Source: an uncultured Lachnospiraceae bacterium (lineage in GTDB: Bacteria; Bacillota; Clostridia; Lachnospirales; Lachnospiraceae). Taken from it: DNA of 42,955 bases. The translations under genes and the position numbers were made by a program. The stretch is from assembly GCA_944383965.1 (NCBI GenBank), contig CALWRQ010000010.1, positions 1 to 42,955 on the forward strand, in the 5' to 3' direction. Every line of letters starts with the position of its first letter. Within the stretch, counting starts at the first letter, position 1. This document shows, piece after piece, positions 28,558 through 40,479 of this stretch. The notes beneath the pieces were generated by a model. That model searched no databases. It was not told the DNA's origin and saw only the letters and a program-made list of their open reading frames with translations.

Positions 28558-29371
28558 ACGAGCATCGCGTTTTCTGGCGGGACCCTACATCATCTGGATG
28601 ATCGGCTTTACCGTTATCCCGCTCATTATGATTATCCTCTACGGCCTGACGGACGGAAACGGCAGCTTTACTCTGGCCAATGTGGCTGCCATCGCCACGC
28701 CGGAGCACCGCAAGGCCCTTCTGCTGTCCCTGGGACTTTCCCTTGCCAGCACCCTGATCTGCCTGATTATGGCTTACCCGCTGGCACTGATCCTTCGAAA
28801 GCGAAACGTGGGCCAGGGCAGCTTCATCGTATTTATCTTTATTCTTCCCATGTGGATGAATTTCCTGCTCCGCACCATGGCATGGCAGACTCTGCTGGAA
28901 AAGAACGGCGTGATCAACGGAATCCTCTCCGCTCTTCACCTGCCGAACCTGACCATTATCAATACTCCCTGGGCCATTATCCTGGGCATGGTCTATAACT
29001 TCCTGCCCTTTATGGTCCTTCCCATTTATAACGTGCTCATAAAAATCGATGATGATGTGATCAACGCCGCCCAGGATCTGGGCGCCAGCACGGCCCAGAC
29101 CCTCACAAAAATTCTGATCCCCTTAAGCCTTCCGGGCATTATCAGCGGGATCAACATGGTATTTGTGCCGGCGCTGACCACCTTCGTAATCTCAAATCTG
29201 CTGGGAGGGAGCAAGATCCTGCTGATCGGAAACGTAATCGAGCAGGAATTCACCAAAGGAAGCAACTGGCATCTGGGTTCCGGCCTGTCACTGGTTCTCA
29301 TGGTCTTTATCCTTGTAAGCATGGCTCTCATGGCCAAATATGACAAAGAAGGGGAGGGCACAGCGTTCTGA
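28550..29371 (+). CDS. potB: Spermidine/putrescine ABC transporter permease PotB
   Basis: This 273-residue inner-membrane permease has six predicted helices and the ABC coupling loop N-A-A-Q-D-L-G-A-S-T-A-Q-T-L-T-K-I-L-I-P-L-S-L-P-G-I spanning about residues 185-210, which contacts PotA. The early W-M-N-F-L-L-R-T-M-A-W segment is typical of PotB. The ATG overlaps the end of the potA frame by 8 nt, with GGGAG 5 nt and GAGGAGG 12 nt upstream, and its stop overlaps the potCD start by one base. With PotC it forms the membrane channel for polyamines. If the upstream stop in potA ends translation early, coupled expression of potB may fall. Confidence 0.93.
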   Translation: MNKRASRFLAGPYIIWMIGFTVIPLIMIILYGLTDGNGSFTLANVAAIATPEHRKALLLSLGLSLASTLICLIMAYPLALILRKRNVGQGSFIVFIFILPMWMNFLLRTMAWQTLLEKNGVINGILSALHLPNLTIINTPWAIILGMVYNFLPFMVLPIYNVLIKIDDDVINAAQDLGASTAQTLTKILIPLSLPGIISGINMVFVPALTTFVISNLLGGSKILLIGNVIEQEFTKGSNWHLGSGLSLVLMVFILVSMALMAKYDKEGEGTAF

Positions 29372-31278
29372 TGCATGATTCAAAATTAAAACGGTTTTTT
29401 CAGGACTTTTATCTGATATTTGTCCTTATCTTCCTGTATGCCCCCATCCTCACCATGATGGTCCTGTCCTTTAATTCCTCCAAGTCCAGAACGGACTGGG
29501 GAGGCTTTACTCTGGACTGGTACCGTCAGATGTTCCAGAGTTCCTCCATTATGGACGCACTCTACAATACTCTGCTGATCGCCTTTATCTCCGCTCTTGT
29601 GGCAACCATCCTGGGAACCGTAGCGGCAATCGGCATCAACCAGATGAAACGGCTGCCCCGCAGCATTGCCATGGGCATAAACAACATCCCCATGCTGAAT
29701 TCGGAGATCGTAACCGGAATCTCCCTTATGCTGGCTTTTCTGGCCTTCGGGATCTCCCTGGGATTCAAGACGATCCTGCTGTCCCACATTACTTTCTGCG
29801 TGCCCTATGTAATCTTGAGCGTCATGCCCAAGCTGAAGCAGACCAGCCGCTATACCTACGAAGCCGCCATGGATCTGGGGGCCGGACCGGTAGAGGCCTT
29901 TTTCAAGGTGGTCCTGCCGGACATCATGCCCGGTGTGCTTTCCGGCTTCCTGCTTGCCTTTACCATGTCCCTGGATGATTTCATCATCACCCATTTTACC
30001 AGGGGGGCCGGAATCAATACTCTGTCCACCCTGATCTACAGTGAAGTTCGCCGGGGAATCAAGCCTTCCATGTACGCTCTGTCCACTATCATATTCCTTA
30101 CGGTGCTGGCTCTGCTTCTCATCACTAATTTTTCACCGGAAAAATCCGCAGCCTCCAGCGCAAAGGAAAAAGCGAGACGCAGCCGCAGGGAAACAGCACG
30201 CCGCATCCTGCTGGTAACCGCCTCCTTCTGTGTGATCGCGGCCGTATCCTTTACGACCTACAGCCACTATGCCGCATCCCGCTCCAATGAGCTGTATGTA
30301 TATAACTGGGGAGAGTATATTGACGAGACGGTGATCGAAGACTTCGAAAAGGAGACCGGCATCCATGTAGTGTATGACCTGTTCGAAACCAATGAGGAAA
30401 TGTACCCGGTAATCGAGGCAGGAGGCGTAGCCTACGATGTCGTCTGCCCCTCCGATTACATGATCCAGAAGATGATCGAAAACGATCTGCTGGCAGAGAT
30501 CAATTTTGACAATATTCCCAATATCAGCCAGATCGACCCGGAATATATGGAGCGCTCCAGAGCCTTCGATCCGGAAAACCGCTACTCCGTCCCCTACACC
30601 TGGGGTACGGTAGGCATCCTCTACAATGATAAGATGGTAGCCGAACTGGGAGCGGAACCTCCGGACAGCTGGATGGATCTGTGGGATGAGAAATTTTCCG
30701 GCGAGATCCTGATGCAGGACAGTGTGCGGGACGCCTTCATGTGCGCGCTGAAAGCCCTGGGCTATTCCCTGAATTCCACCGATCCGGATGAACTGAATCA
30801 GGCCAAAGACCTGCTGATCCGTCAGAAGCCTCTGATCCAGGCCTATGTCATCGATCAGGTCCGGGACAAAATGCTGGGCGGAGAAGCCGCCGTAGGCGTG
30901 ATCTATTCCGGTGAGATGCTCTATCTTCAGGAGCTCGCGGAAGGAAAGGACTTCCATCTGGAATATGTGATTCCCAAAGAAGGAACCAATCTCTGGATCG
31001 ATTCCTGGGTGATTCCGAAAAATGCAAAAAATAAGGAAAATGCGGAAAAATGGATCAACTTCCTGTGCCGTCCGGATATTGCAAAAAGGAATTTTGAATA
31101 CATCACCTACGCCACTCCCAATAAGGGCGCTTATGATATGCTGGATGAAGATCTTCAGCAGAACAAGGCCGTCTTCCCGGACTGGGATTCTCTCACCAAC
31201 GCTGAAGTTTACCAGTATCTGGGCGATGAAGCAGACAGTCTCTACAACGAGCTGTGGAAAGAAGTGAAATCCAACTGA
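29371..31278 (+). CDS. potCD: PotC-PotD fusion: permease plus polyamine-binding protein
   Basis: This 635-residue protein joins two usually separate subunits. Residues 1-255 are the PotC permease (six helices, coupling loop E-A-A-M-D-L-G-A-G-P-V-E-A near 165-176). A basic linker (about 257-278) leads into an extra membrane helix (about 279-298), and residues 307-635 are a PotD-type binding domain that starts L-Y-V-Y-N-W-G-E-Y-I-D and has the late W-I-D-S-W-V-I-P-K segment that lines the polyamine site. The binding domain should therefore sit outside the cell, tethered to its own permease, in place of a lipoprotein. The ATG overlaps the potB stop by one base. Such fusions are known in some Firmicutes. 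Substrate preference, spermidine or putrescine, is not decided by sequence alone. Confidence 0.92.
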   Translation: MHDSKLKRFFQDFYLIFVLIFLYAPILTMMVLSFNSSKSRTDWGGFTLDWYRQMFQSSSIMDALYNTLLIAFISALVATILGTVAAIGINQMKRLPRSIAMGINNIPMLNSEIVTGISLMLAFLAFGISLGFKTILLSHITFCVPYVILSVMPKLKQTSRYTYEAAMDLGAGPVEAFFKVVLPDIMPGVLSGFLLAFTMSLDDFIITHFTRGAGINTLSTLIYSEVRRGIKPSMYALSTIIFLTVLALLLITNFSPEKSAASSAKEKARRSRRETARRILLVTASFCVIAAVSFTTYSHYAASRSNELYVYNWGEYIDETVIEDFEKETGIHVVYDLFETNEEMYPVIEAGGVAYDVVCPSDYMIQKMIENDLLAEINFDNIPNISQIDPEYMERSRAFDPENRYSVPYTWGTVGILYNDKMVAELGAEPPDSWMDLWDEKFSGEILMQDSVRDAFMCALKALGYSLNSTDPDELNQAKDLLIRQKPLIQAYVIDQVRDKMLGGEAAVGVIYSGEMLYLQELAEGKDFHLEYVIPKEGTNLWIDSWVIPKNAKNKENAEKWINFLCRPDIAKRNFEYITYATPNKGAYDMLDEDLQQNKAVFPDWDSLTNAEVYQYLGDEADSLYNELWKEVKSN

Positions 31279-33817: not shown

Positions 33818-34225
33818 TTATTCGTCCTTCTGATCATCCGCACTTTCATATTCATTAACATAGATCAGATGGCTTCTGGAATCTTCCACGATCTCCCGGA
33901 TGCTTTCCGGTGTGAGCGGCACATCCTCAGGCAGAAGAACCAGGCCCATGGCGCAGATCAGATTGATCCCGCAGATCAGATGACGTTTCTCATTCATGTA
34001 GGGGCAGAAATGCTGGTTCACACTTCCTCCGAGCATATCCGTCATCATAATTACCTCATCATCCGGGTCAAAGGAGGAAAATATTTCCTCAATCTGGTCA
34101 TCCAGTTCTCGGTCATCTACATAAGCATTAATATCCCGAATGTCCCGGCAGGCTGTCAGAAACTCCAGAGTATCCTTCATTCCCTGCGCCAGCCGGTGGT
34201 GGGATGCAATCACATATCTTCTCAT
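33818..34225 (-). CDS. PTS mannose-family EIIA component
   Basis: This 135-residue cytosolic protein takes phosphate from HPr and passes it to EIIB. The phosphorylated histidine lies in V-I-A-S-H-H-R-L-A-Q-G-M (His9, with an extra His at 10 where Gly is usual). The M-T-D-M-L-G-G-S-V-N loop is also typical. Length matches the free-standing ManX/LevF type A domain. It is the last gene of the operon, 3 nt after the hydrolase gene, and GAGGAG or AGGAA serve as its ribosome-binding site. It may also phosphorylate the EIIA- and PRD-type sites in the LevR-like regulator. Substrate is unknown. Confidence 0.9.
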   Translation of the reverse strand: MRRYVIASHHRLAQGMKDTLEFLTACRDIRDINAYVDDRELDDQIEEIFSSFDPDDEVIMMTDMLGGSVNQHFCPYMNEKRHLICGINLICAMGLVLLPEDVPLTPESIREIVEDSRSHLIYVNEYESADDQKDE

Positions 34226-34228
34226 AAA

Positions 34229-35458
34229 CTATTCCTGCAGCTCCTCTATAAGTTGTTCCACGTATTTCTCTGCTTCTCCCTGCGGGAACGGCGTGGACAT
34301 ACTCTCATAGCCTTTGCCGTATTCTCCCTTCTCTACAATATAGCCGGCGCTGTAATTGGCATATCCCCATACAATCCGCATCTTTCCCTTCATTGCGTCT
34401 TTAAGCTGTAAGCCAAATGTGGAGAACAGCTCGCCTGGAACTGTGACAATCTCCAGCTCTCCCAGATGGAAGATCAGCGATTTCAGGCTCACATCCACTC
34501 CGCCCCTTTCCGCCTTCTCCTTCAGATGGCGGATGCCGGACCAGAGCAGCTTTCTCTCGTCCTCCGTAACAGCTGCCTCCAGCTTTTTCTCATCCTCTTC
34601 AATCTGCCGACGGATCTGTCCCGTATCGTAGCTGTGGCGTACCCGGTATTCCGCAGATCTGACCCTTCCTGATTCCAGGCGGATCGGCTCTTCCTGCAGT
34701 GCAAAAACGTCTATCTGTTCCATGATCCGGTCTCTCACTCTCCAGAGTTCCTGCTCGTCATTCCCCTGACGATACTGACGGTTGCCCATGTCCCCGCAGG
34801 ATCCCTGCATGGTAATAAAGGTGGTGTGATATTTCTCATCCAGAGCTTTACCCACATTTCCCAGCAGATCGGAACTGAGCTTCATGTTGTGGATCCCAAG
34901 CACTGTGGGATGGCAGGAAAACTGGAAAATTCCGGCTGCCACATGATTCTCATTCCGGAAGAGAATCATGTTGATTTCCTTATCAGACGGCTTGTCCTTA
35001 TAATTCCGGTTGCCGTATATTCCTTCGATCTGTCCCTTCACCATATAGGGCTGTACCTCCAGAAATCCCCTGTCAAAGCAGATATCCACGCCCTCAAAGG
35101 TTTTCCGGATCATCAGATCTCTGTACCGGGCCTTTCTGATATTCCGGTCTTCTCCCTGGTCCTCAAAGCTGATATCCGGACCGGAATGGGTATGTATGGT
35201 GGAAATCACAATCTGTTCCATGGGAATCGTATATTTGGCAGACAGAACCCGGCGCATGTAGTCGGTGATCTCCGGCTCCAGCCGGCACAGATCCAGCGTG
35301 ATCCATAAGAACGTCCGTCCGTCGATGCGCAGCGCCAGGATCCTGGCGTAGAGCCGGTCCAGCACACCGATGGATTTTCCGGTACGCATGGCGTAGCCTC
35401 TCATATACATAGGAAAATCCGGAGTAATATCTATTTTTTCTGCGCTTACTTCAACCAT
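34229..35458 (-). CDS. Ceramidase-fold hydrolase in a PTS operon, catalytic serine position altered
   Basis: The 409 residues resemble the N-terminal domain of neutral/alkaline ceramidases: I-S-T-I-H-T-H-S-G-P (residues 85-94, zinc ligands), F-S-C-H-P-T-V-L-G (180-188), and Q-G-S-C-G-D-M-G-N-R (218-227). In ceramidases this last motif is G-D-V-S-P-N with the catalytic serine; here Gly stands at that position, so amide cleavage by the usual mechanism is doubtful. No signal peptide or membrane helix is seen, so it is cytosolic, unlike secreted ceramidases. AAGGAAGG precedes the ATG. Its place between IID and IIA suggests it acts on a phosphorylated sugar compound brought in by the PTS, perhaps an amide- or ester-linked conjugate. 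That is inference. The family assignment is good; the reaction is unknown. Confidence 0.78.
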   Translation of the reverse strand: MVEVSAEKIDITPDFPMYMRGYAMRTGKSIGVLDRLYARILALRIDGRTFLWITLDLCRLEPEITDYMRRVLSAKYTIPMEQIVISTIHTHSGPDISFEDQGEDRNIRKARYRDLMIRKTFEGVDICFDRGFLEVQPYMVKGQIEGIYGNRNYKDKPSDKEINMILFRNENHVAAGIFQFSCHPTVLGIHNMKLSSDLLGNVGKALDEKYHTTFITMQGSCGDMGNRQYRQGNDEQELWRVRDRIMEQIDVFALQEEPIRLESGRVRSAEYRVRHSYDTGQIRRQIEEDEKKLEAAVTEDERKLLWSGIRHLKEKAERGGVDVSLKSLIFHLGELEIVTVPGELFSTFGLQLKDAMKGKMRIVWGYANYSAGYIVEKGEYGKGYESMSTPFPQGEAEKYVEQLIEELQE

Positions 35459-35471
35459 GCATTCACCTTCC

Positions 35472-36272
35472 TTACGCCAGAATTCCGAAGGCAGAGCAGA
35501 TCAGAGAGAATATAATGACCAGGAGAATAATTCTGGTGATCTTCATCCCCTTGCGTCCGATGAGTTTATAAAGAGCCCATACAGTAAGAACCGAGATCAT
35601 GGACGGAAGGATCTGATCCAGAAGTTCGGCAACTGCCATGTTCACCTCACCCATCTGGAACGTCAGCGGCGTAGTCGCAGTCACTACCGTAGCTGCCAGG
35701 GATCCTACCACGGTCAGTCCCAGAACAGATGCTGCATCCGTAATCTGAGCGATTTTTGTTCCGAACTTGGTAATCAGCTTGGTTCCTTCTTTATAGCCGA
35801 CCCACATCAGCTGCGTACGGATGATAATGAAAATCACATTGGTCAGCAGCCAGAGAATGGTTCCCACCGGGTTTCCTTCCAGAGCCATGTATCCTGCAAT
35901 GGAACCGAGAATGGTGGGAAGCAGAGTCCAGATTAACGTATCTCCCACTCCGGCCAGAGGCCCCATCAGGCTGACCTTGATGTTCTGCACCGCATCAGAA
36001 GCAGAGATGCCTTCCTTATCCTCCAGAGCCAGAGTCGCTCCAAGCACCAGGTTTGCAATCCACGGATGGGTGTTGAAATAACGGAAGTGATTATTTAACG
36101 CCTCCACATACTCATCATCATCCGGATAGATCTTCCTCAGCAGCGGTCCGATTCCGAATACTACCGCCGGAGCCAGCTGGGTATCATAGTTAAATGTTGT
36201 AACAGCCATCAGCGACCATCTGCAGGCGCCTTTTACACAGTCTTTTTTTGTTAATACCGGTTCTTTACTCAT
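35472..36272 (-). CDS. PTS mannose-family EIID component
   Basis: This 266-residue membrane subunit forms the sugar channel together with EIIC. The family pattern is clear: an N-terminal cytosolic stretch, N-Y-D-T-Q-L-A-P-A, F-N-T-H-P-W-I-A-N, A-L-E-D-K, S-L-M-G-P-L-A-G-V-G-D-T, and hydrophobic C-terminal helices. The start is the ATG at 36272 with GGGAGG 8 nt upstream; a TTG-started extension of six residues is less likely. It overlaps the end of EIIC by 8 nt. Substrate cannot be read from sequence; this family transports mannose, fructose, glucosamine, sorbose or sugar-amine conjugates. Confidence 0.94.
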   Translation of the reverse strand: MSKEPVLTKKDCVKGACRWSLMAVTTFNYDTQLAPAVVFGIGPLLRKIYPDDDEYVEALNNHFRYFNTHPWIANLVLGATLALEDKEGISASDAVQNIKVSLMGPLAGVGDTLIWTLLPTILGSIAGYMALEGNPVGTILWLLTNVIFIIIRTQLMWVGYKEGTKLITKFGTKIAQITDAASVLGLTVVGSLAATVVTATTPLTFQMGEVNMAVAELLDQILPSMISVLTVWALYKLIGRKGMKITRIILLVIIFSLICSAFGILA

Positions 36273-37035
36273 CTTCCAGTCCTCCCGCAATTCCCATTGT
36301 CATTCCTGCTTCATTATCCTGATAGAATTTATAGGCCAGGGCCACGCCTAAAAGCGCCACGCCCAGAACAGGTACGCCGATATAGGCGCTGAATACAAAT
36401 CCGATCAGAATGTAGTTAAAGTACTTCTTCGCAGGCATATAATGCAACAGCATGGCAATACCAAGGCCGGGCAGAAGTTTTCCTGCCAGCGCCAGTCCTC
36501 CCGTTACCCAGGCGGGCAGTACATCCAGGATTGTCTGTACTACAGGAGCGCCTACGGTCAGCGCCACTGCTGTAGGGAAGGACATAAAGACAGCTACCAT
36601 GACCGGGCAGATCAGCAGAATCCGATACATCTTTTTAAATTCCCGGGCATTGGCATATTTCTGAGCCCTCTGGGCAATAAAAGAATTACAGATTTTGAAA
36701 AGCACATCCATCTGTACTCCCAGCATTCCTACAGGAAGACCAATGGTGAGTCCCACCTCCGGTCCCTGACCGGTGGTCTTGGCAAAAGCACAGGCAATAA
36801 TGGTAGCGACTCCGTAGTCCGGTACGGACGATCCTCCGATGGCGGCAACGCCCAGAGACATCAGGGTAAAGGTGCCTCCAATATACAGGCCCCCGTTTAC
36901 ATCCCCCAGGATCAGTCCGCAGATCAGTCCTACGATGGCCGGTCTTGCATGGGTCAGGGAGAGACCTCTTCGGTCCACATTGATAAATGCAGCTACCAGG
37001 ATTAAGGCAACAATCTGCCAAGCAGCTAAACTCAT
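36265..37035 (-). CDS. PTS mannose-family EIIC component
   Basis: The 256-residue membrane protein has the EIIC layout of about seven helices, with G-G-L-Y-I-G-G-T and G-P-E-V-G-L-T-I-G-L-P-V-G-M signatures and a hydrophobic C terminus. It makes the transmembrane path for the sugar with EIID. AAGGAGGG stands about 8 nt before its ATG, and its stop overlaps the EIID start. It is third in the order regulator-IIB-IIC-IID-hydrolase-IIA. Substrate unknown. Confidence 0.94.
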   Translation of the reverse strand: MSLAAWQIVALILVAAFINVDRRGLSLTHARPAIVGLICGLILGDVNGGLYIGGTFTLMSLGVAAIGGSSVPDYGVATIIACAFAKTTGQGPEVGLTIGLPVGMLGVQMDVLFKICNSFIAQRAQKYANAREFKKMYRILLICPVMVAVFMSFPTAVALTVGAPVVQTILDVLPAWVTGGLALAGKLLPGLGIAMLLHYMPAKKYFNYILIGFVFSAYIGVPVLGVALLGVALAYKFYQDNEAGMTMGIAGGLEDE

Positions 37036-37065: not shown

Positions 37066-37551
37066 CTATTTTAAAAATTCATCCAGATTAATGACAGAGT
37101 CTGCCGGCACATACTGGGCATAGATTTTCGTCCCTCCGGCCTTCAGCTCCCTGTATGCCTCGATCTCATCCGGTTCCGCGTAAGCTCTCTGATAAAGCTT
37201 GACCGCTTTTCCTTCCTCCTTCGGCTTTACGGTACCTCCCACAACCAGCTCCGGTATCTTCACCCCCTCCCTTGTGAGAGCCGTAAGAGTCTGAGGCTTT
37301 TTCACAATCAGAAATACATTGTGATCATCATATTTTCCCGCTTTAAAATTGGTGACGGCTTTTTCCAGCGTAATGATGGAGATTGCCATTCCCGTAGGTC
37401 TTGCCAGCTTCATGCTCGCCTTGGTCAGTTCGTTCTGAGCCACCTCATCATCGATGATCATGATCCGCTGCGCGCCGGATTTACCTGCCCACTGTGTTGC
37501 AACAATTCCGTGCAGCAGACGATTGTCAATTCTTGCCAGTGTAATTCCCAT
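37066..37551 (-). CDS. PTS mannose-family EIIB component
   Basis: This 161-residue cytosolic domain takes phosphate from EIIA on its histidine and gives it to the sugar during entry. The phosphorylated histidine lies in R-I-D-N-R-L-L-H-G-I-V (His14), as in ManX/LevE-type EIIB. M-I-I-D-D-E and V-G-G-T segments are also typical. AGGAGG stands before the ATG. It starts only 15 nt after the regulator stop, so the PTS genes are read together with the regulator. In LevR-type systems the EIIB protein often negatively controls the regulator by phosphorylation; that may apply here. Confidence 0.94.
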   Translation of the reverse strand: MGITLARIDNRLLHGIVATQWAGKSGAQRIMIIDDEVAQNELTKASMKLARPTGMAISIITLEKAVTNFKAGKYDDHNVFLIVKKPQTLTALTREGVKIPELVVGGTVKPKEEGKAVKLYQRAYAEPDEIEAYRELKAGGTKIYAQYVPADSVINLDEFLK

Positions 37552-37566
37552 AAATCATTTCCTCCT

Positions 37567-40317
37567 CTATTCATCTTCCCAGGTGCCCTGAGGCAGATCC
37601 CGGGATAATGCCTTGTTTTTTGAATGCATGTGAATATAATCATACAGATAGGCGATTTCGCTGACGGGAAGCTCCACCTTATAATGGCTGGCAATGTCCC
37701 GGAAGCATTCCTTCACCTGTCCGATAAATTCTTTCTGTTCCTTCTGAAAGCTTTCCAGATCCTGATAGGTTTCAATGGCTGTCTTGGTCACCAGCCGTTC
37801 CACCATACAGCACAGATGAACGTACAGTCCCGTGATCACTCTCTGATCAATCCTCTGCCCTGTGATCTGCTGCAGGCCTGCTACCCACTGCTCCACCTCG
37901 TCCAGAAGTTTGGACGGGTTCAAAATAGTAATGGACTCCACCACATTCTGGAGAGTAAAATTTTTCAGAAGATTCTGGATAAACAATTCCAGCTGACGCT
38001 CATCCATATACTCGCTGAATATCTGACTGATCTGATCAGCCGCATTCATAGAAATCATATTTTCCAGAGCAATAAAAGGAATTCCCTCGATCTCCGGATC
38101 AAACAGTCCGATGATGCACTTGACCTGATAGCTACCGAACACTGCCTCCTGCCGTCCGTTTCTGGCCAGCCGGTAATAATCGCAGCTGACAAACTGAACC
38201 GGCACAGGACCTTCAAAGCTTTTCATGATCATATCCTTGATCCGGTCAGCCATATCCAGTCCCTTTTCTCCGCAGAAAACAATGGCATCCTCTTTCTTTA
38301 CATTCCGGATTACCCGGTAAGTGCATATATTGTTCTGGCTGGCCTGGCGCAGGATTTCCTCCATGTCCTGGCCTCCGTTGATTCCAATACCGATGTCCAC
38401 AGCCAGGGCAGTGGATATGTTGTTGATAATACCGATGTTCACATCCGGCATGTTTTTCATTTCCTCATTGATCTGTTCCAGAGACCCCATATCCACCATG
38501 AGCACAATGTCGCGGCTCGCAATATAGCGTTCAATGTATTTTTCCAGCACCGCCGCAATATCCTGGCTTTTTTCATCCAGCGGCATATCAATGGCCTCAA
38601 AAACTTTCTTTCCGATGATCTGGTTGGCCGCATCTGCAATACTGGAGGCGGTGGAGTAGCCATGGCTCAGAATGATACCCGCAGTCAGGTTCATGGGGAT
38701 GGTCTGGCTCTGACTTTTGATTCCCAGAAGCAGGAGCAGCTGATTTATGATGTCCGTTTCAATATCCAGATTCTGATGGATCAGACCGATGATCCGCCGC
38801 ATGATCACCGATTCTCTGGGCAGGTTCTGGCTGATTACTGACATGAGCCCCTCGGCCGTTTCCTGATTGGCCTTCATCCATCGGGAAAGGGTGTGTTCCC
38901 CTCTCTGCTGAATATAAAGACACCGCGCCAGAAGATAACTGTACTTCTTTGACATGAAAAATCCATAGGTTTCCCCCACAGACTGGAAAATCTGATTGAT
39001 CAGCTGTTCATAGGTGGAGATCCGGACATTGACCAGTTTCTGACTGTAGATCAGATAATCATAATAGTCCTTCATGTGGCTTTCTATGGCCCGGGTCATG
39101 GCCTCCAGAGTCTGCGTTCCTTTCTGAAAATCCTGGTATTCATCCAGGATCAGCTGGAAAAAGGAAACTGCCTGATCCAGAGAACTGCCTCTGCTGTAGC
39201 TGCTGATCCGGATCAGTGGCTCGTCTTTCACATCTGTCTCCAGCTTCAGCTCTCCCAGAATATAATCCGGCAGATGATAGGTCTGAATCTGGATCCCATC
39301 CTGACTTTTCTCCATATAGGCACTGGCACAGCAGCTGGTAATACAGGCTTTGAGCTCATCAATGTTATTCTCAAACGGATAGTCCATCATACAGCCAAAT
39401 GCCTGGCGGCTGACGGATACCTCCACTCCCATCCGCCTTCCTTCCCGTCTAAGAAAGGAGATCAGCATCTCCTCCTTTTCATCTATCGTCCGCTCACTGA
39501 GGGCCGGGATGGGAATAACAATGGGAATTCTTCTGGCCAATCCCTTGAAAAGAGCCTCGCCCGGGGGGCGGCTGGCCGCAAATACCAGCCGTGCTTCCGA
39601 CCGTTTCGTTTCCCCTGTATCTTCAATCCGATATTGCCCGGATGACAGATAAGACAGAAGAAGCTCCTGGCTTTCCCAGGGCAGACGGTCAATATCATCC
39701 AGAAAGAGCATTCCCTTATCCGCCTCTGCCAGCCAGCCTTTCTGACCGTCTGTTCCCCAGAGCTTCCGCACGAATTTCTTTCTGTCCTGTATATACTCTC
39801 CGCAGTCTACCTCGATGTACCTGGCATCCGGTCCCAGCACATGCTGATTCTTTCCATATTCAAACATCAGGCGGGAAAGAAACGACTTTCCCGTTCCCGG
39901 CGGCCCCCAGAACAGAACAGGAAGTCCTGCCGGCGGATAGTGGATCGCCGCTTTGCATTGCTCTATGCAGGAGCTCAGACTCAGATAATGCCCGATGGCT
40001 TTCTGAAAATCCTTGCATGCATCCCTGTTTCCCGTTTTCAGCATGAATTCATCCAGGCCGGAAAATGTACAGGTGTCAAACGATATCTGGGCTGAAAGCT
40101 CCACGTTCCGTTTGTGAAAAAAATAAACCGGGCGGGAATTGACCTTAATAGCCCGGCTTTCCTTAACCAGATCGTTTAAGTACTGGCTGGCCAGGTTTCT
40201 GGATATATTCAGGGTTTCGCTGATGTCATTGGCTGTAAAGTGTTTTAAATCCTTCATTGAAAAGTCACGGCTGATCTGTTCCAGATAGCGGTAAACTTCT
40301 TCCTTCGTACTGACCAT
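37567..40317 (-). CDS. LevR-family PTS-controlled AAA+ regulator lacking the GAFTGA loop
   Basis: The 916-residue protein has an N-terminal winged helix (about 1-65), an AAA+ domain (about 85-345) with Walker A G-P-P-G-T-G-K-S (138-145) and Walker B M-L-F-L-D-D-I-D (203-210), two PRD-like regions (about 380-520, His514; and 795-905, His834 and His896), and an EIIA-Man-like domain (about 545-680, His552 in S-H-G-Y-S). In sigma-54 activators the GAFTGA loop lies between Walker A and B; here the stretch L-W-G-T-D-G-Q-K-G-W-L has no such loop, and the Walker B Glu is Asp. It may therefore act without sigma-54. The start is the ATG at 40317, with GGAGATG upstream; the frame opens at 40332. It heads the PTS operon. 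Phosphorylation by PTS components probably tunes it. Confidence 0.88.
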   Translation of the reverse strand: MVSTKEEVYRYLEQISRDFSMKDLKHFTANDISETLNISRNLASQYLNDLVKESRAIKVNSRPVYFFHKRNVELSAQISFDTCTFSGLDEFMLKTGNRDACKDFQKAIGHYLSLSSCIEQCKAAIHYPPAGLPVLFWGPPGTGKSFLSRLMFEYGKNQHVLGPDARYIEVDCGEYIQDRKKFVRKLWGTDGQKGWLAEADKGMLFLDDIDRLPWESQELLLSYLSSGQYRIEDTGETKRSEARLVFAASRPPGEALFKGLARRIPIVIPIPALSERTIDEKEEMLISFLRREGRRMGVEVSVSRQAFGCMMDYPFENNIDELKACITSCCASAYMEKSQDGIQIQTYHLPDYILGELKLETDVKDEPLIRISSYSRGSSLDQAVSFFQLILDEYQDFQKGTQTLEAMTRAIESHMKDYYDYLIYSQKLVNVRISTYEQLINQIFQSVGETYGFFMSKKYSYLLARCLYIQQRGEHTLSRWMKANQETAEGLMSVISQNLPRESVIMRRIIGLIHQNLDIETDIINQLLLLLGIKSQSQTIPMNLTAGIILSHGYSTASSIADAANQIIGKKVFEAIDMPLDEKSQDIAAVLEKYIERYIASRDIVLMVDMGSLEQINEEMKNMPDVNIGIINNISTALAVDIGIGINGGQDMEEILRQASQNNICTYRVIRNVKKEDAIVFCGEKGLDMADRIKDMIMKSFEGPVPVQFVSCDYYRLARNGRQEAVFGSYQVKCIIGLFDPEIEGIPFIALENMISMNAADQISQIFSEYMDERQLELFIQNLLKNFTLQNVVESITILNPSKLLDEVEQWVAGLQQITGQRIDQRVITGLYVHLCCMVERLVTKTAIETYQDLESFQKEQKEFIGQVKECFRDIASHYKVELPVSEIAYLYDYIHMHSKNKALSRDLPQGTWEDE

Positions 40318-40354
40318 TGATTCATCTCCCATGGTGATTTCTTACTACGCTCTC

Positions 40355-40360
40355 ATTATA
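40355..40360 (-). promoter_or_regulatory. Candidate -10 element for the PTS operon
   Basis: A perfect TATAAT on the minus strand stands 38 nt before the regulator start. A -35 is weak. No GG-N10-GC sigma-54 promoter was seen on the minus strand between 40318 and 40535. Confidence 0.45.
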
Positions 40361-40460
40361 CGGCTTTTGCGGAAAAGAAAAATACTTTTCCCCCAATTCC
40401 GCCACTGCTCCTTCACTTTCATCAATAGTTTCTGTAAATTTTCCCATGCTTACTCTTTTT

Positions 40461-40479
40461 CGACACTAAAGTCGACACT
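40461..40479. repeat. Direct repeat CGACACT, 12-bp period, in the divergent region
   Basis: CGACACT occurs at 40461-40467 and 40473-40479. With flanking bases this is TCGACACT twice, one helical turn apart. It lies in the 220-nt gap between the PTS regulator and the HAD phosphatase gene, so it may be an operator for either. Confidence 0.45.

Follow-up and report, generated by a model that had tools for sequence, protein, structure and literature searches.

The opening of a sigma-54 promoter needs an ATP-driven machine, whereas that of a sigma-70/A promoter does not. The NtrC proteins of Rhodobacter and Caulobacter are alphaproteobacterial two-component response regulators without PRD or EIIA domains; TyrR, DhaR, HupR, VpsR and YplP have other sensor domains; and PRD activators of the MtlR/LicR type are phosphorylated by the phosphotransferase system (PTS) and act without sigma-54. 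This study concerns a LevR-like PTS regulator without the GAFTGA motif, encoded at 37567..40317 on the minus strand of a 42,955-nucleotide stretch (the window) of contig CALWRQ010000010.1, from an uncultured Lachnospiraceae bacterium (assembly GCA_944383965.1, here G000). Phosphorylation of the EIIA histidine of Bacillus subtilis LevR by HPr stimulates, phosphorylation of its PRD2 histidine by EIIB inhibits, and its upstream activating sequence (UAS) lies at -125; MtlR/LicR-type activators are described as lacking a central domain like that of the enhancer-binding proteins (EBPs) (PMC10864463). R. capsulatus NtrC is reported to need ATP binding, not hydrolysis, and Caulobacter NtrC is a further case of GAFTGA loss (PMC10274813). 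GAFTGA is also deleted or changed in TyrR, DhaR and HupR, which are sigma-70 dependent, and in VpsR and YplP, which were judged probably not sigma-54 dependent (PMC3162934). Among 490 EBPs of Clostridiales species with sigma-54, 355 carry the exact GAFTGA and 100 a variant, with 35 remaining (PMC6615313). No description of LevR-type proteins without GAFTGA turned up in the open-access PMC literature searched.

The window protein resembles B. subtilis LevR and the LevR/CelR/ManR group of PRD-containing EBPs in its N-terminal helix-turn-helix, AAA+ domain, EIIA-Man domain and C-terminal PRD. It also resembles LevR-type EBPs in its two phosphorylation histidines (at places corresponding to those of the LevR EIIA and PRD2 domains), in the adjacent mannose-family PTS genes and in the far-upstream position of its putative distal sites. 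Unlike LevR, it has no GAFTGA, no Walker B glutamate and no -24/-12 site, and its motif is placed against a sigma-A -10 element. As an EBP that lacks the L1/GAFTGA loop and would act on a sigma-70-type promoter it is comparable to the two NtrC proteins, and we infer an independent origin of loop loss; none of TyrR, DhaR, HupR, VpsR and YplP is a LevR-type PTS regulator. Unlike MtlR/LicR, the present proteins retain the EBP-like central domain and fall among LevRs in the tree. From sequence comparison, we consider it likely that the protein is a PTS-controlled LevR-type activator that derives from sigma-54 activators and has come to drive transcription of its own PTS operon from a sigma-A promoter.

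The regulator and its missing loop

The first ATG of the open reading frame (ORF) gives a gene of 37567-40332 on the minus strand, and the start at 40317, also that of the original prediction, was preferred because GGGAGA stands just upstream of it and homologues align from there; the protein then has 916 residues. A putative winged-helix DNA-binding region lies near the N-terminus at approximately 40108..40275 (ISRNLASQYLNDLVKE..RPVYF), its fold type and boundaries being predictions, and an arginine within it is conserved in 100 of 100 aligned sequences. The AAA+ domain (39541..39981; residues 118-264 of the 921-residue ORF) matches the Pfam family Sigma54_activat (PF00158) with 52.3 bits against a cut-off of 20.2. 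The family is above cut-off, too, in all four of the other proteins scanned from clade A, which is described below. The EIIA-Man domain (38443..38676, conserved histidine at 38662-38664) and a PRD in the PRD2 position (37630..37884, conserved histidine at 37816-37818) are likewise above their Pfam cut-offs, and AAA_lid_14 falls just below. This PRD, at residues 817-901, is the only one that Pfam reports in the window protein; LevR-type EBPs have a further one, PRD1, before EIIA-Man. At the place of EIIB-Gat the region aligns and gives no Pfam match, and the column of the catalytic cysteine is not safely placed.

Between Walker A (GPPGTGKS, 39883..39906) and Walker B the protein reads LWGTDGQKGWLAEADKGMLFLDDIDRLP opposite LFGYxKGAFTGADxDKxGLxExADGGxLFLDEVHRLP of the GAFTGA-bearing (GAFTGA+) sequences. 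Nine alignment columns including GAFTGA are missing, and the site of the lost L1 loop is LWGTDGQKG (39736..39762), as placed by alignment with 36 GAFTGA+ sequences. The Walker B glutamate has become aspartate, giving D-D in place of D-E (39694..39699), and both arginine-finger residues are retained. This alignment agrees with the original prediction of a LevR-like protein with Walker A and a D-D Walker B and without the loop. The D-D, however, holds for the window protein and not as a general trait; D-E is retained by its nearest kin (L065 and L106), and N-N, R-D, Q-D or E-N is found in others.

A near copy on contig C151 of the same genome (L034) is 93% identical in protein and 86% in DNA and has the same features. 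The ratio of nonsynonymous to synonymous substitution rates (dN/dS) between the two copies is 0.040 overall; that of the AAA domain, 0.063, shows this domain to be under purifying selection. The copy sits with EIIB and EIIC genes on a 5-kb contig and is either a paralogue or from a second species in the assembly. Chance or sequencing error as the cause of the loop's absence was ruled out, as the loop is missing from 20 sequences in 18 genomes and from this second copy.

The best NCBIfam family for the window protein, NF047795 (DagR), scored 427.8 bits, far under its curated cut-off of 1400. A whole-protein AlphaFold model (four sequences) was poor, with a mean predicted local distance difference test score (pLDDT) of 62 and a predicted template modelling score (pTM) of 0.29, and its best PDB matches, NtrX, NtrC1, PspF and VpsR among others, added little beyond Pfam. 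The protein is a descendant of LevR lacking features that define a sigma-54 activator, and for that reason is best not filed as one.

Phylogeny of the loop-less proteins

Relatives were collected by profile searches over genome samples drawn from the order, the phylum, the family and the Clostridium cadaveris family, with matches in 62 of 398, 14 of 397 and 36 of 206 genomes in three sample searches. A single-protein scan of named genomes gave no match, an alignment-based search of named genomes gave three loci, and a second drawing of relatives gave eight genomes with a match, all of them already in the set. From the -24/-12 counts onward, near copies and fragments were dropped before counting (L059, L096, L103, L105, L114 and L049), and L083 and L101 were also dropped from the trees, motif counts and residue counts. 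GAFTGA is present or nearly so in the GAFTGA+ sequences and absent from all 20 sequences classed as loop-less, which come from 18 genomes (16 sequences at first and four later). These are uninterrupted long ORFs, one of which (L109) ends at a contig end.

The tree was computed without the AAA columns from all 20 loop-less and 25 chosen GAFTGA+ sequences. Sixteen of the 20 form a single clade, A, with a Shimodaira-Hasegawa approximate likelihood ratio test (SH-aLRT) support of 98, nested stepwise among GAFTGA+ LevRs; its nearest GAFTGA+ sequences are L144 (support 97), then L110 with L145, then L146 (support 99). Separate losses were found outside clade A, in L113 and in the group of L064, L115 and L051. 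A single loop-loss event was ruled out, since three changes of loop status are needed both on this tree and on an earlier one with 12 clade A sequences.

The P-loop lysine is kept in 16 of 16 clade A sequences. The Walker B glutamate remains in two of the 16, compared with 80 of 80 GAFTGA+ sequences, and the two arginine-finger positions are arginine in five and four of the 16; all 80 GAFTGA+ sequences counted keep D, E, R and R. The EIIA and PRD2 histidines are conserved in every clade A sequence (16/16).

Promoter architecture

A -24/-12 site matching at least 9 of 10 positions was found within 400 bp after the regulator gene in 50 of 82 GAFTGA+ loci (21/38 and 29/44), and 0.9% of shuffled 430-bp stretches reach nine positions. 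None matching at least 8 of 10 positions was found up- or downstream of the regulator in any of the 20 loop-less loci (16 and 4). At the window gene no nearby site scores above 6 of 10, and the canonical LevR of the same genome, which serves as a positive control, has a 10/10 site. For four GAFTGA+ sequences and the loop-less L109 only about 30 bp lay downstream, and these were counted as misses in the first -24/-12 count. Downstream of the GAFTGA+ LevR genes of L079 and L080, the -24 element is preceded at a distance of a few bases by a perfect palindrome, AGTGTTACACT.

The predicted sigma-A promoter of the window operon has a -10 hexamer TATAAT at 40355..40360 on the minus strand, and its -35 is poor, since no two-hexamer site is listed at this TATAAT by a sigma-70 scan. 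A proximal copy of the motif AGTGTYGA, AGTGGCGG (40399..40406, minus strand, two mismatches), starts 46 bp before the -10, and a distal double site, AGTGTCGA-N4-AGTGTCGA (40460..40479, minus strand), lies 119 and 107 bp before it. With the -10 taken to start at -12, the predicted start of transcription falls near 40348, and the positions are about -58 for the proximal site and close to -131 and -119 for the distal pair.

In each of 15 clade A loci, AGTGTY is present no more than 300 bp upstream. The distance from the start of the motif (at most two mismatches) to the -10 is exactly 46 bp in seven of the ten loci first analysed, and 1000 dinucleotide shuffles never gave more than three of those ten at any offset. 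A spacing of 44-47 bp holds in 12 of the 15 clade A loci (eight at exactly 46), with L034 left out as a near copy, the later loci presumed to be operons and about one expected from shuffles. No case of the same rule was seen in the upstream regions of 80 GAFTGA+ regulator genes, nor in the four loop-less sequences outside clade A (L113, L115, L064 and L051). A distal motif copy was found at offset 118 in four and at offset 119 in three of the ten loci, which may overlap.

A search for the double site with at most two mismatches found only one further match in the window's assembly; it lies upstream of the regulator copy on C151 and is exact. Elsewhere, one exact match (G817) and one with two mismatches (G889) lie upstream of a regulator gene, one two-mismatch match in G057 does not, and no match was found in G002, G004 and G410. 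All three exact double sites in these seven genomes thus stand upstream of a loop-less regulator gene. G057, which has no motif upstream of its EIIB gene, was considered as an exception, and this was dropped once the motif was found before the first gene of the operon. The regulator there comes last in its gene cluster. A motif pair, with TATATT at 47 bp, precedes the gene with which the operon seems to begin and which we take to be NIF3-like; this links the motif to operon control rather than to the regulator gene itself.

In 26 GAFTGA+ sister loci AGTGTY is also enriched upstream of the -24/-12 sites (31 found compared with 3.5 expected, up to 220 bp), and in 24 more distant LevR loci 12 were found compared with 3.8 expected, the boundary between sister and distant (score over 560) having been drawn after the scores were known. 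The DNA-binding preference seems to have been inherited, and the core promoter exchanged beneath the motif.

Occurrence of rpoN

The rpoN gene (PF04963) was found in five of 15 loop-less carrier genomes, compared with 17 of 18 GAFTGA+ carriers (Fisher p 4.5e-4), and was not found in the other ten loop-less carriers tested. These ten genomes are 86-100% complete, eight of them at least 96%, and three are single-contig (G057, G828 and G1070); a contamination of 6-11% is listed for three (G964, G828 and G1082). The GAFTGA+ exception, G026, was counted at 78% completeness and has no PF04963 match, with a 23.4-bit PF04552 match on another contig. The count covers 15 of the 18 loop-less carriers, the other three (G1116, G1255 and G1259) being those in which the later loci were found, and the GAFTGA+ carriers may hold further, unclassified LevRs. 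On the tree, rpoN absence was concordant with loop loss in one to three of three pairs and never opposite, G026 being left out of this test and kept in the Fisher count.

The N-terminus of the canonical GAFTGA+ LevR of the window's genome, on contig C60 (L047:3595-6603, from about 7594), gives a match of 28.5 bits, above the cut-off of 22.8, to positions 94-160 of Sigma54_DBD, the family for the DNA-binding part of sigma-54 itself, and that of L060 stays below the cut-off at 21.0. By eye, L048, L062, L116 and L117 have similar N-termini and look like EBPs with an RpoN-like DNA-binding part. In four genomes of the same family (G380:C6, G876:C1, G906:C1 and G915:C1) the distance between an rpoN match and a GAFTGA+ LevR match is about 0.3-2.3 kb, and G906 and G173 have two rpoN matches each. 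It may be that rpoN and LevR travel together.

Several expectations of the original prediction are borne out by these surveys. The TATAAT box is present at 40360-40355, nothing near the gene resembling a GG-N10-GC site scores above 6 of 10 positions, and the retained histidines fit its view that PTS control was kept. An upstream -24/-12 promoter, which it had named as part of the evidence against itself, was found neither at the window gene nor at any of the 20 loop-less loci. The scan for rpoN that it proposed found both rpoN and a canonical LevR in the window's genome, with rpoN missing from 10 of 15 carriers. Its suggestion that the transcription mechanism had changed gains support from the joint absence of the loop and the -24/-12 site and from these rpoN losses, and of the two modes it had offered, with sigma-A or as a repressor, the near-fixed distance between motif and -10 (12/15) favours a sigma-A activator.

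Proposed mechanism and alternatives

In the mechanism proposed, the N-terminal winged helix would bind the AGTGTYGA sites, in the window the distal pair and the weaker proximal site, and the regulator would make its contact with RNA polymerase at the proximal one; the near-fixed spacing between motif and -10 would be accounted for in this way. Remodelling by ATP hydrolysis would no longer be needed, and the loss of the L1 loop, the Walker B glutamate and, in most relatives, the arginine fingers could be understood on that account. The P-loop would still bind ATP, which would shape or assemble the oligomer. ATP probably acts as a ligand and not as fuel, the P-loop lysine being kept throughout while the hydrolysis residues drift. 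Phosphate from HPr on the EIIA histidine would stimulate and phosphate from EIIB on the PRD2 histidine would inhibit, as in LevR. The site positions, the poor -35 and the near-fixed spacing make the arrangement look like that of an activator contacting sigma-A polymerase. The comparison itself shows that the loop and catalytic residues are lost, that -24/-12 sites are lacking, that the motif keeps its spacing and that the histidines are conserved; from it we infer the binding of the motif by the regulator, activation as opposed to repression, the role of ATP and the direction of phosphorylation control.

A number of observations weigh against this interpretation. The motif and the 46-bp rule were derived on the same data, and the 44-47 tolerance was set after the later loci; the five promoters examined later (four later loci and the first-gene promoter of G057) give 44, 44, 45 and 47 and one no match, none of them exactly 46. 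Three of the 15 clade A loci (L121, L122 and L143) miss even 44-47. The fitting -10 is TATGAT in L119 and TACAAT in L067, and L119 has a TATAAT elsewhere that is overlapped by AGTGTT. In the window, L065 and L118, two of the eight positions of the proximal site are mismatched, and the 80 control regions lie upstream of regulator genes and are not the target promoters of those regulators. For the double site, a backwards control pattern matched 26 places in the seven genomes compared with five for the true pattern (at most two mismatches), and for this reason only the three exact matches carry weight. Many of the AGTGTY sites of the sister loci fall within the last part of the regulator's coding sequence, where codons for Ser-Val might produce them; in four of these loci (L082, L148, L149 and L150) a spacing of 41 bp puts two copies in different reading frames, which makes a coding cause less likely. 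The P-loop Ser/Thr is kept in 11 of 16 clade A sequences, so ATP binding is not assured throughout, and the window protein, with Walker A and both arginine fingers, may still hydrolyse it. Five of 15 loop-less carriers, the window's genome included, still have rpoN, and the tree-aware test is without power because the sequences are related and only three independent losses are available.

The same sites could instead serve a PTS-controlled repressor of the sigma-A promoter, acting by DNA looping between the distal and proximal copies and released when sugar is present. The distal copies at 118 or 119 (4/10 and 3/10 loci, possibly overlapping) together with the one at 46 would suit looping, the gene order in 8 of the 11 clade A loci viewed places the regulator before the EII genes that it would control, and TyrR, a relative from another family that lacks GAFTGA as well, can also act as a repressor. 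However, conserved sites upstream of the core promoter (the proximal one at about -58), at a near-fixed distance from the -10, are more typical of an activator, and the -35 of the window is poor; in L119 a motif copy overlaps another TATAAT. We regard repression as unlikely, but as the most serious competitor of activation at a sigma-A promoter.

Decay of the AAA+ domain was also considered, which would leave a non-functional or dominant-negative remnant and assign the motif to another regulator. The loss of Walker B and arginine-finger residues in most of clade A, and of the P-loop Ser/Thr in 5 of 16, would be expected from it. Such decay is improbable given the long uninterrupted ORFs (L109 being cut by the contig end), the low dN/dS (0.063 in the AAA domain and 0.040 overall), the lysine and histidines kept in 16 of 16, the position of all three exact double sites in seven genomes upstream of the regulator gene, and the sharing of the motif by GAFTGA+ sisters. 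That the protein is still a sigma-54 activator using a degenerate L1 loop would be compatible with the rpoN of the window's genome and four other carriers and with the Walker A and arginine-finger pair of the window protein. It is hard to reconcile with 20 of 20 loop-less genes lacking a nearby -24/-12 site of at least 8 of 10 positions and with 10 of 15 carriers lacking rpoN, and GAFTGA changes mostly abolish sigma-54 activation in the EBPs studied (PMC3162934; PMC7175178); this explanation is considered very improbable.

Neighbouring genes

The regulator is followed on the minus strand by genes assigned through Pfam to EIIB of the sorbose family (37066..37551), EIIC (36265..37035), EIID (35472..36290), a neutral/alkaline ceramidase-like protein (34229..35458) and EIIA of the mannose family (33818..34225). 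Since only 15 bp separate the regulator and EIIB, a separate EIIB promoter is not expected. The ceramidase-like gene among PTS genes recurs in G889 (L118) and perhaps hints at an N-acylated sugar as substrate, and a weaker relative occurs in L127 near a GAFTGA+ LevR. An ORF elsewhere in the window (29371-31278, plus strand, 635 residues) reads like a PotC permease fused to a PotD binding protein and is presumably concerned with spermidine/putrescine.

Significance

Other EBP families are already reported in which GAFTGA was lost and control passed to sigma-70, and LevR-type PTS regulators would be a further instance. For the clade as a whole, we lean towards a switch of sigma factor in place, in which the ancestral motif was kept, the -24/-12 element was replaced by a -10 at 44-47 bp, and the AAA+ domain became an ATP-gated, PTS-phosphorylated scaffold contacting sigma-A polymerase, with the loop lost at least three times, mostly without rpoN. 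If this is true, species such as that of the window, which have rpoN together with both kinds of LevR, would show that the switch can come before the loss of rpoN or outlast it. There is also a consequence for annotation, as Pfam matches the sigma-54 interaction domain in five clade A proteins and 10 of 15 loop-less carriers are without a detected sigma-54. As one regulator family occupies both sides, sharing its sensor and, it seems, its DNA motif, the steps of a sigma switch could be read off a tree, and the family may show how one regulatory mechanism is exchanged for another while the sensor stays.

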